The position numbers and the translations under genes were made by a program. Below the pieces are notes generated by a model. That model was not told the origin of the DNA. It searched no databases and saw only the letters and a program-made list of their open reading frames with translations. From Desulfuromonadales bacterium (GTDB lineage: Bacteria > Desulfobacterota > Desulfuromonadia > Desulfuromonadales > Geopsychrobacteraceae), in NCBI GenBank assembly GCA_019429255.1, contig JAHYIY010000017.1:1-54646 (forward strand): a stretch of 54,646 nucleotides of DNA, given 5' to 3'. Positions 8,750-34,770 of the stretch are shown piece after piece; within the stretch, counting starts at the first letter, position 1; every line of letters begins with the position of its first letter.

Positions 8750-10348
8750 ATGTCTAATAGTCTTAATACCAGGGGCCTGGTGGTTATATTTTGCCTGCTT
8801 CTGTCGTTGTTTGCGCTGGTTCCAACGCTGCTGCGCGGTGATGTTCCTTCATGGTGGCCGAAAACCTTTGGTCCGATCCAGTTGGGGCTCGATCTGCAGG
8901 GGGGGATGCATCTGGTGCTCGGCGTCGATGTTGACAAGGCGGTAGAAAGCCGCGTTGATACCATCATCGATCAGACCGAAGTCCGTTTGAAAGAGCAGGA
9001 CATTATCTACAAACGGGTTGAGCGTCGGCAGGGTGATCGGCTTGTTGTCCAGGTTTATGATCAGGACGAAGGACATAAAGTTGATGCGTTGATGAAAAGC
9101 GACTTTCCGGCACTGGAACCAGCTACCATTACCGGGACCGGTGGTTATATCGAAAAGCATTTTCGCTTGAGTGATGATGAAATTGAAAACATCAAGGACT
9201 ATGCCGTACGTCAGGCGCTGGAAACCATGCGTAATCGGGTCGATCAGTTTGGCGTCAGTGAGCCGACGCTACAACGACAGGCCGGCAATCGTATTCTCAT
9301 CCAGTTGCCGGGGGTCGATGACCCGGATCGCGCCATCTCCCTGTTGGGTAAAACTGCCCGGCTCGAATTCAAAATGGTCGATGAAACAGCCAATATTCAG
9401 GAAGCTCTGACCGGACGCCTGCCGGAAGGTACACAGTTGCTGTATGAACGCAGCACCAATCGCGCCAGCGGGGTCGAAACCGAAATTCCCCTGGTGGTTT
9501 CAACCCAGACGATTCTCACCGGCGACCTTCTGGCTGATGCCAATGTGCGTATCGATACCCGTTTTAACGAACCCTATGTGTCGATCGACTTCAATGCTGT
9601 AGGAGCCCGTCGTTTTGACCAGATCACTGCGGCTAACGTTGGCCGCCGCATGGCCATTGTGCTTGACGATACAGTCTATTCCGCTCCAGTGATTCGTGAG
9701 CGGATTTCCGGTGGCAGTGCCCAGATTTCCGGCTCTTTTACCTCACAGCAGGCGACGGATCTGGCCATTGTACTGCGTGCCGGATCGCTGCCGGCACCGG
9801 TTGAGATTCTTGAAAATCGGACCGTCGGCCCGTCTCTGGGGCAGGATTCCATCGATAGCGGCATCAAGTCCATCTGGGTAGGCGCCCTGATGGTTCTGGT
9901 TGTTATTATCGTCTATTACCAGCTGTCTGGTTTGATCGCCATTAGCGCCCTGATGATGAACCTGTTTTTTATCGCGGCTATGCTGTCGATGTTCGGCGCG
10001 ACCCTGACCCTGCCCGGGTTAGCCGGTATTGTCCTCACGGTTGGTATGGCTGTTGATGCCAATGTGTTGATTTTTGAGCGGATCCGTGAAGAGCTGGCGC
10101 TGGGCAGAGCCCCCAAGCTGGCCATTGATTCCGGTTATAGTAAAGCTTTTTCAACCATTATCGACGCCAACCTGACAACCCTGCTGGCTGCCCTGGTATT
10201 GTTCCAGTTCGGTACCGGTCCGGTACGTGGATTTGCCGTTACTCTCTCGATCGGGATCATCGCTTCGTTGTTTACCGCGATTTTTGTTTCCCGTTTCATC
10301 TTTGACTTTTTCTTGAAAAGCCGCAACATCAAGCGGCTGAGTATATAA
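8750..10348 (+). CDS. secD: Protein translocase subunit SecD
   Basis: Inner-membrane RND-type protein that uses proton flow to help pull exported proteins across the membrane. The 532 residues include an N-terminal membrane segment (about 8-28), a LGLDLQGGMHLVL motif at the start of the periplasmic P1 domain, NRVDQFGVSEP, and a C-terminal block of five membrane segments containing GMAVDANVLIFERIREEL. The frame opens at TTG 8708, but AAGGGAGA at 8732-8739 points to the ATG at 8750, which gives a normal N-terminus. secF follows after 13 bp with AAGGAG. Confidence 0.97.
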   Translation: MSNSLNTRGLVVIFCLLLSLFALVPTLLRGDVPSWWPKTFGPIQLGLDLQGGMHLVLGVDVDKAVESRVDTIIDQTEVRLKEQDIIYKRVERRQGDRLVVQVYDQDEGHKVDALMKSDFPALEPATITGTGGYIEKHFRLSDDEIENIKDYAVRQALETMRNRVDQFGVSEPTLQRQAGNRILIQLPGVDDPDRAISLLGKTARLEFKMVDETANIQEALTGRLPEGTQLLYERSTNRASGVETEIPLVVSTQTILTGDLLADANVRIDTRFNEPYVSIDFNAVGARRFDQITAANVGRRMAIVLDDTVYSAPVIRERISGGSAQISGSFTSQQATDLAIVLRAGSLPAPVEILENRTVGPSLGQDSIDSGIKSIWVGALMVLVVIIVYYQLSGLIAISALMMNLFFIAAMLSMFGATLTLPGLAGIVLTVGMAVDANVLIFERIREELALGRAPKLAIDSGYSKAFSTIIDANLTTLLAALVLFQFGTGPVRGFAVTLSIGIIASLFTAIFVSRFIFDFFLKSRNIKRLSI

Positions 10349-29733: not shown

Positions 29734-30377
29734 AAAAAGTTGAAGCCATCATCTACGATTGCGATGGCGTCTTGTTTGCGAGTCACGCTGCAAACCTGGC
29801 CTATTATAATCAGATATTTGCGGCCTTTGACTATCCGGCGATCAGTGCTGAACAACAGGAAGCTGCTCACTTGTGTCATACCGCCAGTTCGCCTGATGTC
29901 CTTGCGGGGCTGATGCGCGCAGAGGATGTGCCGGCGGCCCTGGCGTTTGCAGCGGAACTCGATTATCGACAGTTTATTCCCTTGATGACACCGATGCCGG
30001 AATTGCACCAGGTTCTCGAAATTGTCGCAAAACACTATCCTCTGGCAATTGCCACCAATCGGGGTTCCAGTGTTATACCGATCTTAGAGCATTTTGCCTT
30101 GGGGGAATTTTTTTCTGCCGTGGTGACCAGCCGCGATGTCAAAAAGCCCAAGCCGGCACCGGACATGCTGTTACTGGCCGCCCACCATCTCGGACATCTA
30201 CCGCAAGCGTGCCTTTATATTGGCGACTCAGATCTGGACCAGGCAGCAGCAACGGCCGGGTCATTTCATTTTTTAGGCTACGGAGAATGGTTTATGCGGG
30301 AAAAAAGCGTTAACAGGGTATTGGGCCGCCATCGCGATCTGCTCGAGCACTTGAGCCTTCCAACCCCTTTTAGCTAA
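29730..30377 (+). CDS. HAD-superfamily phosphatase (Gph/PGMB-like)
   Basis: A 215-residue HAD hydrolase with motif I YDCDGVLF (nucleophile and acid/base aspartates), a helical cap (about 20-90), and motif II in LAIATNRGSS. Motif III is the lysine in KKPKPAPDM and motif IV is YIGDSDLDQAAA. The type 1 cap suggests phosphoglycolate- or sugar-phosphate-phosphatase activity, but the substrate is not predictable. It overlaps lgt by four bases and, tail to tail, the RsbW-like gene by four bases. Confidence 0.88.
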   Translation: MKKVEAIIYDCDGVLFASHAANLAYYNQIFAAFDYPAISAEQQEAAHLCHTASSPDVLAGLMRAEDVPAALAFAAELDYRQFIPLMTPMPELHQVLEIVAKHYPLAIATNRGSSVIPILEHFALGEFFSAVVTSRDVKKPKPAPDMLLLAAHHLGHLPQACLYIGDSDLDQAAATAGSFHFLGYGEWFMREKSVNRVLGRHRDLLEHLSLPTPFS

Positions 30378-30796
30378 TCCAGGAATTTCGTCATCTCGAG
30401 AACATTAACCCCTTTGTTGCGCACATACCTGACGTTATCCATCAGTTTAAGAATAATGTTGACACCACGCCCCCCCTCATCACAGGGGTGGGCGTTGACC
30501 TTGTGGCGGGCACCGATCTCAAAGCCCGGCCCCTGGTCGTAGATCCGGATGATCAGATCATCATCCGAGGCAGAGATAGTGATGTGGACATCTTTTTCCG
30601 GGTCGGAATCGTTACCGTGACAAATGGCATTGGTCATCGCTTCGGTTAAACACAGATTCAGGTGATAAGCCAGTTCGCGCCTGTTTCCCCGGTAGTTGTT
30701 CAAGGAAAAAGCCAGGCTTTCACCGATCTGGCCAACCATGGCGAGATAGCGTGTCTGGCTGGGCACCTTGATGTTGAGTTCCACCCGTTTAGACAT
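30374..30796 (-). CDS. RsbW-like anti-sigma factor / serine kinase
   Basis: A 140-residue GHKL ATPase of the anti-sigma kinase type. The N box is NLCLTEAMTNAICHGN. The G1 box is YDQGPGFEIG. The G2-like segment GGRGVNIILKLMDNVRY completes the nucleotide site. In partner-switching systems such a protein binds a target and phosphorylates its STAS antagonist; that antagonist is encoded 35 bp upstream on the same strand, with the SpoIIE phosphatase before it. No sigma factor is nearby, so the target is unknown. Confidence 0.9.
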   Translation of the reverse strand: MSKRVELNIKVPSQTRYLAMVGQIGESLAFSLNNYRGNRRELAYHLNLCLTEAMTNAICHGNDSDPEKDVHITISASDDDLIIRIYDQGPGFEIGARHKVNAHPCDEGGRGVNIILKLMDNVRYVRNKGVNVLEMTKFLD

Positions 30797-30831
30797 AAAA
30801 ACCTTCTTTACAGCAGTGTTACGGTCGTTGT

Positions 30832-31170
30832 TCAGGACTGGCTGTCAAGGGCTTCTTCCAGGGTCGTAAAAATCTCGAAAACGCGATGCAGACGGGTCAG
30901 TTCAAACATGGAGCGGACTTGCGGTTGCAGGCAGCAGAGTTTGAGACTGCCATCGCGGGCACTGGCGTTTTTGAAACCCGAAACCAGGGCGCCGAGGCCG
31001 GAGGAGTCGATAAAACGGACGGCTGCCAGATCGATCACCAGCTGGCATTTTCCTTCGTCAAAGAGTTGCAGCATACGTTCCTTGAGGTTGCCGCTATTGT
31101 GGGCATCCATCCGCTCTTCCTCGACGGTGATAATGACGTTTTCTTCCTTTTCGCTGATTTTTAATTGCAT
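30832..31170 (-). CDS. STAS-domain anti-sigma factor antagonist
   Basis: A 112-residue single STAS domain. The phosphorylatable serine lies in RFIDSSGLGALVSG, and the C-terminal helix contains FELTRLHRVFEIF, as in RsbV and SpoIIAA. The frame is open from 31227, but the ATG at 31168-31170 has AAGGAG nine bases before and gives a normal-length domain. It lies between the phosphatase fusion and the RsbW-like kinase. It is expected to be phosphorylated by the kinase and dephosphorylated by the SpoIIE domain. Confidence 0.92.
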   Translation of the reverse strand: MQLKISEKEENVIITVEEERMDAHNSGNLKERMLQLFDEGKCQLVIDLAAVRFIDSSGLGALVSGFKNASARDGSLKLCCLQPQVRSMFELTRLHRVFEIFTTLEEALDSQS

Positions 31171-31265
31171 TGCATTTACTCCTTTTATGCCGGTTGCGGT
31201 AACAAGCTTACGTTTGTTTTTCGACATTATACAACAGTTTACGCCATGACTGTTGATTCATAGAG

Positions 31266-34200
31266 TCATTTTAGAATTTTCATCGCCAACAAGGTGACAT
31301 CATCATTAAAATGGCGATAGCCGCTGAAAAGCCTGATCTGGGTCAATATCTGGTCAATCAGTTCCTGCGGTGTCGTCTGTCCCTCTTCGCTCAGCAGTTT
31401 CTCCAGACGCTCCTGGCCAAACAGGTTCTGATGGCTGTCTTCGGCTTCGATGATGCCGTCGGTATAAAGTAGTAACATATCGCCGGGCTCAAGCCGGATG
31501 CTGTGTTGTTCGAAATTAACATCCTTGCGGACGCCAAAAATCAACCCCTCCGCATCCAGCGGTTCTATCAGTTGATGCTGGTGGCGCCACAGCAACGGCG
31601 GGTTGTGACCAGCGTTGCTGTAGATCAGTTGACGACTGGCAAGATTGTATTGCAGATAAAACATGGTGACAAACAGATCGGAACGATCGAGGTCCTTGAG
31701 GAAATAGTCATTGAGTGCGTGAAGCATGGCGGCCGGACTTTCTATGTCGTAAACCCGGGAATGAATGAATGTCCGTGTTTCCGCCATAATTAACGCAGAA
31801 CCGATATTGTGTCCTGAGACATCGGCGATAACCATATCGCAGCGCCCATCATTCCGCATGATAAAATCATAGTAATCGCCGCCGACCTGATGGGCAGGAA
31901 CGCAGAGTCCGGCTACCTGAATTTCTTCCATCACCGGCAAGGACGCAGGTAACAGCCCCATCTGGATATCCTTGGCGATCTGCATTTCCCGTTCCTGCTC
32001 ACGCACCTGCAGCAGGCGTCCGATCTGCTGCTCATTGCGCCAGGCAATGCCAACCTGTCCGGCAATGTTTTCCAGCAGGGCGATAAATTCGCTGGTAAAG
32101 ACCCCTTTGCCGGAGCGTGAAAAAGCAGACAAGATACCCACCGGTTCCCCTTCAAGAGCGATCGGCAGATGGGCAAAGCAGGTGATGCCCTCGGCCTGGA
32201 TGATGGCTGAGGACGCCGGCTTTTCCAGTTCGTCGCTATCATTGACAACCATCGCGACATTGGAAAGAAAAGCCTGGCCAATGTAGGTTTCGTTGGACAG
32301 GTTGCGTTCCGACTTGCCAAAGTGATTGAAGGTTTCGCCGACCAGACTTTTGACCAGCAAGGTGCGGGTTTTAGGTTCGAGAAAACGGATGACGCAGAGG
32401 TCAAATTTAAACTGTTGTGTCAATAATTCGAGAATGCGGTCGAGTTTGGTCTGAAAGCTTTCGCCACTGGAAACCAGCTGCGAGACATCGTACAAAACGC
32501 TCAAGTGTTCGCGGCTGATGGCACCATCAATGGTCACAGAACCAAAGATGTCGAAGATATTCTCCATCTCGCTGCCTCGCGCCGCCAGGTAATTTTCGAG
32601 GATAATGCGCGCGGAACCGGCACCGACGTGACCGGCCAGGGTGCGTTCGGTGAAACTTTTCAGGCTGAAAATATCCTGATCATTGAGGCTGCCGCGATGA
32701 TCGATTTGCTTGTCGGCCAAAAAAATTGAAATGGCGGTTTGTGCCGGTTTTTCACCGATAAATTTGGACATCAGATCAATAAATTCAACAATCGTTGGCG
32801 CTTTGCTGATCCGTGTTAAGCGTTCATCCGGTTGCTCCTGCCCGGCAAAAACATCAACAAAAATTGCGGCACGGATTTTTTCTGCTTCACTCTGCCTGGT
32901 CAGAATGGACACCATGCAGTATGTGCCGAGATTGAGCAACAGGGTCCAGAACAGGGAGTGGGTATACATTTCGAAGCCGCTCAGACCAAACAGCTCAAGG
33001 GGTTTTAATTGGGCAATGCCGAATGGCCCGTGCTCCAGCAGGCTGTTGTCGATCCAGCCGGAACGAACGAATGAGGGGATCAGCAGGGTATATCCCCAGA
33101 TGGCAAAACCCAGACTGATGGACCAGATGGCCGCATATTTGTTGGCGCGCTTCCAGTAAATGGCGCCGATCATGGCGGGAGCAAACTGAGCAGCGGCCAT
33201 AAAGGAGATCAGACCGATATTGACCAGAGCGTAAGAGTCACCGATGACAGTAAAATAGAAGTAACCTAAAAGAACGACAACAATGATACCCAAACGTTTG
33301 ATGTTGATAAGGATGCCGGAAAGGTCCTGAGCCCGTAGTTTCAACTTCAGAATGACCGGCATGACGAGATGATTGAGGATCATGGTGGCGAGGGTCACTG
33401 ATGAAACCATCACCATGCCGGCGGCAGCGGAAAGTCCGCCAATAAAGACCAGCAGTGCCAGCCAGGGCTGGTCGGCGGCTAACGGCAGTGTCAGGACAAA
33501 ATAATCAGCTTGCGTTGTGTCGCCGTTGTTGAGCAGTAGTCCGCCCATGGCAATGGGCAGGACAAACAGGTTAATCAGGAACATGTAGGCGGGAAAGCGC
33601 CACATCGCTTTTTGGATGTGCTCTTCGTTGGCATTTTCCGTCACCATAATATGAAACTGGCGCGGTAAAAACATGATCGCCGCCATGGAAATGACGATCA
33701 GGGAGAACCATTTCGTATAGGGCACCTCAGCTGTGCCTACCGCAAACAGATAACTGCGATCAGGAAAGCGTTCGTAAAACTGCTGAAAAAGATCGATAAA
33801 ACCGTTGAACAACCCATAGGTCACAAAAACACCAACGGCGATAAATGCCACCAGTTTGACCAGTGATTCGAGCGCTACTGCAACAACCAGCCCTTCATGA
33901 CGCTCTGAGGAATCAAGGTGGCGTGCGCCAAAGAGGATGCCGAATGCCCCCAGTAACAAGGTGACAAGAAGGGCTGAGTCGACTTGCCCCGGCAGATAAG
34001 AGATTAAATTTGAGGTTGGTTCGTCCAGGTTTTTCAGCGGCAAAAAGAGAATGTCCAGGGTTTTGGCGATGGCCTTCAGCTGCAGGGCGATATAGGGGGT
34101 AATGCCGAAAACGGCAAAGAGGGTGACAATCGCACCAAGAATGGCAGAACGGTCGTAGCGGCTGGCAAGAAAGTCGGCCAGACTGGTGATGTTCTGTTCC

Positions 34201-34490
34201 TTGCTGACCCTCACCATCTTACGCAGCAGAAACCACCAGCCGAAGGCAATCAGGGTTGGCCCCAGGTAAATCGGCAGATAGTCCAGTCCGGTGGTTGCTG
34301 CTTTGCCGACGCTGCCGTAAAAGGTCCAGCTGGTACAGTAAACGGCGATTGACAGGGTGTAAATGTGTGGGTTTGAGAGTAGACTGTGACCGGCTTTGCG
34401 GCGCCGGTCAGCATAGTAGGCAACAAAAAAGATCAGGGCGAAATAACACAGGAAGACGGTAATGATTATTTCTGCTGGAATCACCCTCAT
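31266..34490 (-). CDS. Solute-symporter/STAC/GAF/SpoIIE-phosphatase fusion sensor
   Basis: A 1074-residue membrane sensor. Residues about 1-530 form a sodium/solute symporter (SLC5/SSF) domain with some 13 membrane segments (SNPHIYTLSIAVYCTSWTFY, LPRQFHIMVTENANEEHI, GGLSAAAGMVMVSSVTLAT). Residues about 565-645 resemble the STAC linker known between SLC5 domains and histidine kinases (FTERTLAGHVGAGSARII). Residues about 670-825 form a GAF domain. Residues about 835-1074 form a PP2C/SpoIIE phosphatase with the metal aspartates in GGDYYDF, ADVSGHN, LLYTDGIIEAED and FNDDVTLL. The start ATG at 34488-34490 has AGGGG nine bases before; a TTG nine bases upstream is less likely. Such symporter sensors usually end in a histidine kinase, so the phosphatase output is unusual. 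Confidence 0.92.
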   Translation of the reverse strand: MRVIPAEIIITVFLCYFALIFFVAYYADRRRKAGHSLLSNPHIYTLSIAVYCTSWTFYGSVGKAATTGLDYLPIYLGPTLIAFGWWFLLRKMVRVSKEQNITSLADFLASRYDRSAILGAIVTLFAVFGITPYIALQLKAIAKTLDILFLPLKNLDEPTSNLISYLPGQVDSALLVTLLLGAFGILFGARHLDSSERHEGLVVAVALESLVKLVAFIAVGVFVTYGLFNGFIDLFQQFYERFPDRSYLFAVGTAEVPYTKWFSLIVISMAAIMFLPRQFHIMVTENANEEHIQKAMWRFPAYMFLINLFVLPIAMGGLLLNNGDTTQADYFVLTLPLAADQPWLALLVFIGGLSAAAGMVMVSSVTLATMILNHLVMPVILKLKLRAQDLSGILINIKRLGIIVVVLLGYFYFTVIGDSYALVNIGLISFMAAAQFAPAMIGAIYWKRANKYAAIWSISLGFAIWGYTLLIPSFVRSGWIDNSLLEHGPFGIAQLKPLELFGLSGFEMYTHSLFWTLLLNLGTYCMVSILTRQSEAEKIRAAIFVDVFAGQEQPDERLTRISKAPTIVEFIDLMSKFIGEKPAQTAISIFLADKQIDHRGSLNDQDIFSLKSFTERTLAGHVGAGSARIILENYLAARGSEMENIFDIFGSVTIDGAISREHLSVLYDVSQLVSSGESFQTKLDRILELLTQQFKFDLCVIRFLEPKTRTLLVKSLVGETFNHFGKSERNLSNETYIGQAFLSNVAMVVNDSDELEKPASSAIIQAEGITCFAHLPIALEGEPVGILSAFSRSGKGVFTSEFIALLENIAGQVGIAWRNEQQIGRLLQVREQEREMQIAKDIQMGLLPASLPVMEEIQVAGLCVPAHQVGGDYYDFIMRNDGRCDMVIADVSGHNIGSALIMAETRTFIHSRVYDIESPAAMLHALNDYFLKDLDRSDLFVTMFYLQYNLASRQLIYSNAGHNPPLLWRHQHQLIEPLDAEGLIFGVRKDVNFEQHSIRLEPGDMLLLYTDGIIEAEDSHQNLFGQERLEKLLSEEGQTTPQELIDQILTQIRLFSGYRHFNDDVTLLAMKILK

Positions 34491-34512
34491 AGTATCCAAC
34501 CCCTAATCGCTA

Positions 34513-34770
34513 TCACCGTTCGTGAGAGTTATTTTTGTTTAGCTGATGCTGGGCCAGACTGTGCATTTCCAGGCGGCGGACGAACAGCCAGATCACACCG
34601 ATAGAGGCCGGCCAGCCATACATGAAATACACCACCAGACTGGGAATGCCCAATATGGACATATCGCCGTAAAAAATATGGATAAAGGGAAAATTGATCA
34701 TAATCATCCCGAGGAACATGAACAGAATCCAAGCTTCACGAAGGGTATTGTTTGGATGATGTTGTCTCAT
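34513..34770 (-). CDS. Small two-segment membrane protein upstream of the symporter sensor
   Basis: An 85-residue protein with two hydrophobic segments (about 12-30 and 40-64) and a charged C-terminus (RRLEMHSLAQHQLNKNNSHER). AAGGGGG precedes the ATG; the frame is open to 34833. It ends 22 bp before the symporter fusion on the same strand, in the place where small subunits accompany some sodium/solute symporters and symporter sensors. An accessory role for the sensor is an inference from position. Confidence 0.75.
   Translation of the reverse strand: MRQHHPNNTLREAWILFMFLGMIMINFPFIHIFYGDMSILGIPSLVVYFMYGWPASIGVIWLFVRRLEMHSLAQHQLNKNNSHER

Follow-up and report, generated by a model that had tools for sequence, protein, structure and literature searches.

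An SLC5-STAC sensor protein with a SpoIIE-type phosphatase output and its own partner-switching pair in Desulfuromonadia

SLC5-STAC proteins, in which a transporter-type membrane domain is joined to a STAC domain, have been described as histidine kinases (CbrA, CrbS, RpuS), and GGDEF outputs are also in print (PMC5715377). In CbrA the lysine K196 fills the sodium (Na2) site (PMC13022988), and CbrX is well conserved in Pseudomonas and Azotobacter (PMC6591292). For Actinobacteria, proteins combining SSS, GAF, PP2C_SIG and HATPase domains have been mentioned on the basis of SMART (PMC7918813), which lowers the novelty of the system described here. This system is an operon in a stretch of 54,646 nucleotides (contig JAHYIY010000017.1 of assembly GCA_019429255.1, Desulfuromonadales bacterium), the whole of which we call the window. 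Its central protein, here called the transceptor, joins an SLC5-STAC front through a GAF domain to a SpoIIE-type PP2C phosphatase, and it is encoded together with a small two-helix membrane protein, a STAS antagonist and an RsbW-type kinase. A sensor type that mostly feeds histidine kinases is here connected to a phosphatase with its own kinase and antagonist. An earlier note on this DNA had stated that SLC5-STAC proteins normally end in histidine kinases. Kinases are indeed found, but they are not exclusive, given the published GGDEF proteins and a protein ending in GGDEF and EAL seen by us in Pseudomonas tumuqii (locus L184). The combination of SLC5, STAC and SpoIIE was not found in the open-access literature searched, nor were a class-wide operon, an output swap, a shared small protein or sensor-less relatives; the available text of PMC2700814 does not describe the set and that of PMC8256260 holds nothing on Geobacter.

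The operon and the domains of its proteins

Four open genes occupy positions 34770-30374 of the minus strand, and the open reading frames and Pfam matches agree with the four-gene operon of the earlier note (Table 1). Among the window proteins Pfam finds SpoIIE (E 1.8e-52), GAF_2 (E 7.6e-14), STAS (E 3e-23) and HATPase_c_2 (E 2.6e-21). The STAS frame starts at 31227 in the ORF listing, the conserved start being the ATG at 31170. The organization of the locus is not due to chance, because the same gene order recurs in relatives. Promoter and terminator scans at the locus gave scores not far above shuffled means and were not used.

The Pfam SSF match of the transceptor (21.6 bits) is just below the cut-off of 22.8 bits, and the identity of the SLC5 domain and of the STAC linker rests on alignment with 10ED, the SLC5-STAC chain of CbrA solved by cryo-EM. 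10ED aligns with residues 13-641 at E 1.2e-68 with the single sequence and at E 1e-94 with an orthologue profile. The predicted model (mean pLDDT 80.3, pTM 0.53; STAC blocks only 61-79) has many membrane-length helices in SLC5, four helices at 570-640 as expected for STAC, the latter with moderate confidence, and one long helix after GAF. With the alignment running through STAC and the modelled helices, the proposed SLC5-STAC-GAF-SpoIIE fusion is confirmed, and the absence of STAC, named in the note as a refuting finding, is not borne out. A Foldseek search with the full model (library to April 2026) has RssB, SGLT-MAP17, NIS and 2QYB among the matches listed; 10ED is not among these 50 rows.

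K215 of the transceptor takes the position of CbrA K196. It is a lysine in all 118 aligned SLC5-STAC rows, 74 of SpoIIE type and 44 classed as having another output (one of the 44, L049, is really a stop-broken SpoIIE copy). The column is also invariant in 46/46 orthologues of alignment A1, which holds the window and 45 of 49 full-length references (L013, L017, L048 and L049 were dropped for a stop codon in the stretch taken). In L049 (G055) and L013 (G005) the transceptor has one in-frame stop, mid-gene or near the end, and these are either broken copies or sequence errors. Of the histidine-pocket residues of CbrA, Y51, W55, Y75 and F406 are identical in the window, and S53, A56, F71 and F248 are replaced by T, T, Y and S. 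At the S53, A56 and F248 positions T, T and S are also usual among the other SLC5-STAC rows. The F71 position is F in 65/74 SpoIIE-type and 41/44 other rows, and the Y of the window belongs to a minority. The lysine at the Na2 site and the pocket substitutions suggest that coupling is probably not to sodium and that the ligand is probably not histidine. The "symporter" of the earlier note therefore stands as an SLC5 domain, but not as a sodium-coupled one, as K215 argues against it. Acetate or another small carboxylate would be our guess for the ligand.

The GAF domain is related to 2QYB, the solved GAF domain of a Geobacter sulfurreducens "putative membrane protein". The 2QYB fragment shares 73% identity with the GAF domain of L105, a SpoIIE-type locus. 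All eleven of its best matches in the set of fetched proteins are Geobacter-type SpoIIE loci, so 2QYB probably derives from a Geobacter orthologue of the transceptor. In the phosphatase domain D875, D878, D893, D982, D1014, E1018, D1066 and D1067 are invariant in 46/46 aligned orthologues (A1), and the PP2C motifs align with the RsbU domain of Rv1364c (3KE6). We take these motif residues to be metal-binding. At the sequence level the catalytic motifs are thus intact and invariant, which answers the concern of the note that the phosphatase might have lost its activity. No HisKA match is present in the transceptor (Pfam); with its SpoIIE output it is therefore not a member of the SLC5-STAC histidine kinase family.

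The STAS antagonist and the RsbW-like kinase of the operon are confirmed by Pfam, the DSSG motif and the kinase boxes. S56 and S57 of DSSG are invariant in the 33 rows of alignment A4 (32 others, four of them from family f4, which is treated below), and the serine is presumably the phosphosite, as in SpoIIAA. In the kinase E52, N56, H60, D87, G89, G91 and G109-R110-G111 are invariant in 30/30 rows (A2, 29 of 44 others and the window); the rows of both alignments, and of A3 for the small protein, were chosen for spread or to avoid stops. Of the solved structures, RsbW (6M36) and SpoIIAB (1TIL, 1L0O, 1TH8) come nearest to the kinase. HATPase_c_2 exceeds the family cut-off twice in the window genome, in the operon kinase (76.1 bits) and in a 545-aa frame (33.8 bits) that reads as a sensor kinase. 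The same genome encodes at least one further SpoIIE-type protein. It also has, at L061 (G000:C40), an SLC5-type permease of 603 aa, accompanied by a small membrane protein and by one that resembles CBS-domain proteins; on our own reading the permease is possibly that for acetate.

Table 1. Features of the operon and of the transceptor in the window
Feature	Position	Strand	Basis or remark
Small two-helix membrane protein, 85 aa	34513..34770	(-)	ATG at 34770; CbrX-like by place and predicted shape
SLC5-STAC-GAF-SpoIIE protein, 1077 aa counted from TTG	31266..34499	(-)	alternative in-frame ATG at 34490 possible
SLC5 membrane domain, residues about 9-533, K215 at Na2 position	32901..34475	(-)	10ED alignment and modelled helices
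STAC domain, residues about 569-641	32577..32795	(-)	10ED alignment; predicted helices 570-581, 583-594, 607-625, 627-640
GAF domain, residues about 663-802	32094..32513	(-)	Pfam; kin to 2QYB
Long predicted helix, residues 803-849	31953..32093	(-)	homology to histidine-kinase relatives fades out inside
SpoIIE/PP2C phosphatase domain, residues about 850-1077	31269..31952	(-)	Pfam and motifs
STAS antagonist, 112 aa	30832..31170	(-)	Pfam; DSSG motif; conserved start ATG at 31170
RsbW/SpoIIAB-type kinase, 140 aa	30374..30796	(-)	Pfam and conserved boxes

Distribution, origin of the output and the small protein

The same architecture was searched for in related genomes and is not restricted to one of them. 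The transceptor, either full, contig-broken or stop-interrupted, is carried by 58 of the 60 genomes searched (the window's own included), and the other two both belong to f4. Named carriers include Desulfuromusa, Malonomonas, Geopsychrobacter, Geothermobacter, Geobacter, Citrifermentans and Geomonas. In the phylum (two candidates scored per genome) 78/395 genomes match at E 1e-60. Matches that take in both the SLC5 and the SpoIIE ends come from the same class or nearer kin only and the remainder stop by residue 867; one additional row, also within the class, spans the SpoIIE end alone. Of 200 class genomes that are at least 90% complete, 184 have a match to the STAS protein at E 1e-25. Among the 16 class genomes lacking such a match, six have no transceptor match at E 1e-20, two (G452 and G527) contain contig-cut pieces of a SpoIIE-type SLC5 protein whose best matches reach the contig end, and the remaining eight have matches to SpoIIE only, SLC5 matches that stop at residues 833-869, or a single short SLC5 match. 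Six loci on viral contigs match, all by the C-terminal part only. Plasmids give 119 matching records at E 1e-20, with none covering more than 80% of the query among the 30 matches listed. The whole class, one of anaerobic bacteria, seems to have carried the gene set for a long time.

Operon structure was counted in 73 distinct SpoIIE-type frames of at least 900 aa. STAS and kinase genes lie downstream in 62/67 loci with enough sequence, and the small gene was found upstream in 66/72 by script. Three of the six upstream misses (L030, L074, L092) hold the small gene inside an over-long frame; tblastn did not find it upstream of L041 (one copy), L076 and L082. At L041 (G046:C16) two SLC5-STAC-GAF-SpoIIE paralogues stand in tandem, some 4.7 kb from each other, and a complete set is present elsewhere in the same genome (L040). 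In f4 the STAS and kinase genes are kept at the locus in all nine sampled genomes and the transceptor and small genes are gone. The usual flanking genes surround the pair, except that in two genomes no HAD gene was detected, and the rest of these nine genomes yielded no SLC5-type match at E 1e-20. Should f4 consist of fermenters, it would fit that a sensor for respired carbon was lost. Being confined to one family, this loss of the sensor is perhaps one event.

The origin of the phosphatase output can be followed in the SLC5-STAC tree, where 19 SpoIIE rows form one clade (SH-aLRT 96) that is sister to three SLC5-STAC-GAF-histidine kinases (95). The tree is a quick search with 50 of the 118 rows, and several of its long branches, mostly those of CbrA and CrbS, come together elsewhere. 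Identity to the three GAF-kinases is about 55% in SLC5, 34% in STAC and 35% in GAF. It is 28-31% over residues 803-838, 9-18% over 839-860 and 14-15% beyond. The drop after residue 838 places the join within the long post-GAF helix. We read this as an output swap: judged by the aligned sequences, the transceptor is of common origin with the SLC5-STAC-GAF-kinases and has a different output domain after the helix. Coiled-coil linkers have been proposed to let sensors be exchanged among phosphatases, kinases and GGDEF enzymes (PMC12143880), and the transceptor family looks like an exchange of this type. A word search of the available text of that paper found no SLC5, STAC or transporter.

Helices 6-33 and 44-84 are predicted in the small protein (mean pLDDT 74.6), for which neither Pfam nor NCBIfam gives a match at E 0.1 or better. 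Among 155 candidate frames its profile picks out a homologue (E <1e-3) for 35 of 43 other SLC5-STAC genes, lying at most 161 bases upstream. When 228 short frames across those loci were scored, only the same upstream genes fell below 1e-3 and the next best had E 0.35. The 43-gene set omits L097, L098, L183 and L186, and it is also without L049. By tblastn a small homologue is present at L097, L098 and L186 (the last in the same genome as L097). In P. tumuqii (G592) the GGDEF-EAL-type gene (L184:4815-8063) has a small two-helix homologue five bases upstream and the histidine kinase-type gene L183 has one by eye; a profile search found none upstream of the hybrid kinase taken for CrbS. These observations suggest that CbrX-like small proteins accompany SLC5-STAC sensors far beyond Pseudomonas.

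The relation of the small protein to CbrX itself is less firm. A P. tumuqii gene that we take to be CbrA from its motif and its PAS, HisKA and HATPase_c domains is preceded by a two-helix-like frame of 58 aa, the length reported for CbrX. The first profile gave E 0.71 for CbrX homology; with the extended profile the CbrX-like frame of P. tumuqii reached E 0.042 and an L155 frame E 0.003, the best of 1000 shuffles being E 0.092. A PDB search with the family alignment A3 (36 rows: 35 of 48 and the window) returned no CbrX. As sequence homology is marginal, the name CbrX-like refers here to the position and shape of the small protein alone. At L182 the CbrX-like frame of P. tumuqii is 199 bases from the start taken for the CbrA-like gene, unlike the overlap reported for P. 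putida, and short similar-looking frames were seen by eye between the two (~9160-9400).

In several relatives a protein of ~520-580 aa is encoded between the small gene and a TPR gene (L036:7539-9140, L052:10369-11922, in both with a four-base overlap with the small gene), and at L172:6889-8634 it occupies the place expected for the small gene. On our own reading it has an aminoglycoside-phosphotransferase-like front and an ATP-binding end. The provisional neighbour labels "IspE" and "LolB" were not used as annotation; the "IspE" protein reads as a peptide-binding ABC protein (L172).

Possible mechanism and alternatives

As read from the sequences, the domain make-up, the intact catalytic and phosphosite motifs and the conserved operon are well founded. 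We also consider it likely that the transceptor works as an SLC5-STAC sensor with a PP2C output and its own partner-switching pair, in the following way. Substrate uptake or sensing would set the phosphorylation state of the STAS protein, as the earlier note had supposed. The SLC5 domain, with K215 replacing sodium and the small two-helix protein as a subunit, would change state with substrate and protons; STAC, docked beneath, would read this state, and GAF may contribute a cytoplasmic-ligand input. The helix 803-849 would pair into a coiled-coil dimer and thereby switch the phosphatase, a mode of control described for such phosphatases (PMC12143880). The phosphatase would strip the phosphate from the STAS serine, free STAS would capture the kinase and the captured kinase would let go of a held protein, most likely a sigma factor encoded elsewhere.

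Several observations weigh against this mechanism. P. putida CbrA without its membrane domain, when overexpressed, still answers carbon availability (PMC6591292), and a construct with cbrAB but no cbrX could restore growth on histidine (PMC13022988); the signal may therefore be something other than transport or the small protein. The STAS and kinase pair persists in f4 without this phosphatase and so does not depend on it alone. Five SpoIIE-type copies were found without adjacent STAS or kinase genes (the two at L041, and L076, L077 and L082). Lastly, the sigma-factor content of genomes did not track the presence of the system.

The main rival is that the cytoplasmic GAF domain is the true sensor, SLC5 being an uptake unit or a membrane anchor and the phosphatase answering an internal metabolite. 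We give it somewhat less than an even chance, and CbrA genetics supports it: besides the signalling by CbrA lacking the membrane domain, the PAS domain is stated to be essential (PMC6591292), and SLC5 or SLC5-STAC alone gave no growth on histidine (PMC13022988). A GAF domain is also shared by the window protein and L096, the nearest scanned kinase-type relative. Conservation points the other way. By mean majority fraction SLC5 (0.77) and STAC (0.79) are the most conserved of the large parts, above GAF (0.73) and PP2C (0.68), and most pocket columns are conserved in the 118-row comparison.

The target of the kinase and STAS protein may also be something other than a sigma factor, for example an anti-sigma factor or a cyclic-di-GMP enzyme, which we regard as possible, though less likely than not. 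Outputs other than sigma factors are exemplified by SiaC and HsbA. In line with the "no sigma factor nearby" of the earlier note, none of the five Sigma70_r2 matches of the genome is on the window contig. No sigma class followed the system when Sigma70_r2 matches were compared in 21 genomes (10 without a STAS match, nine related genomes with it and two of f4), and co-loss picked no target: by our own classing from frame length, RpoD-sized matches are present in 21/21, and RpoS-sized ones in 8/10 genomes without STAS (G569 and G570 have none) and 9/9 with it. Against a non-sigma target stand the solved structures nearest to the kinase, RsbW and SpoIIAB, and the small number of sigma factors in the genome, which on our own reading are RpoD-, RpoS-, ECF- and FliA-like (L188-L191). 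It is very unlikely that the phosphatase acts on a STAS protein other than its neighbour: the pair does persist without it in f4 and the genome has a further SpoIIE-type protein, but the pair is kept downstream in 62 of 67 loci, and of the 16 STAS-less class genomes only G452 and G527 show SpoIIE-type SLC5 pieces, in matches that run to the contig end.

A broader picture goes beyond the partner-switching mechanism preferred above, and we hold it to be doubtful. SLC5-STAC would be a general two-subunit chassis, a transporter with a small two-helix regulatory subunit, on which histidine kinase, GGDEF-EAL and PP2C outputs are exchangeable; in Desulfuromonadia its PP2C version would be an ancestral core circuit in which uptake of a respired carbon source directly determines how active a major sigma factor is. 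A lineage of fermenters would have lost the sensor and kept the switch.

Relation to known systems

The system is real, conserved and well explained as an architecture. Apparently the output of a single chassis has been exchanged in nature, a transporter-STAC front having been joined to kinases, to a GGDEF-EAL protein and to a phosphatase. Such a swap makes two points testable, transfer of state through STAC and the interchange of coiled-coil linkers between kinases and PP2C phosphatases (PMC12143880). For Geobacter-type bacteria it suggests a widespread and apparently unstudied control circuit, of which one domain (2QYB) has probably already been solved.

The transceptor shares with CbrA/CbrX of Pseudomonas an SLC5 and STAC front homologous over ~630 residues, the lysine at the Na2 position and a small two-helix protein encoded upstream. 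It differs in having a PP2C output instead of a histidine kinase, GAF where CbrA has PAS, and four changed pocket residues. L096, L100 and L102, from metagenome bins titled Pseudomonadota, Deltaproteobacteria and Thermodesulfobacteriota, are nearest in the tree and have the same domains up to the post-GAF helix, whereas a histidine kinase follows the helix (GAF, HisKA and HATPase_c by Pfam in L096; by alignment only in L100 and L102). The actinobacterial SSS-GAF-PP2C_SIG proteins likewise join a solute-symporter domain to a PP2C of the same type, but by their printed description they carry HATPase_c in the same protein. With RsbU-RsbV-RsbW and SpoIIE-SpoIIAA-SpoIIAB the operon has in common a PP2C phosphatase, a DSSG-type STAS antagonist and a kinase with matching boxes; unlike them, it has a transporter-type membrane domain as its sensor and no sigma gene on its contig.

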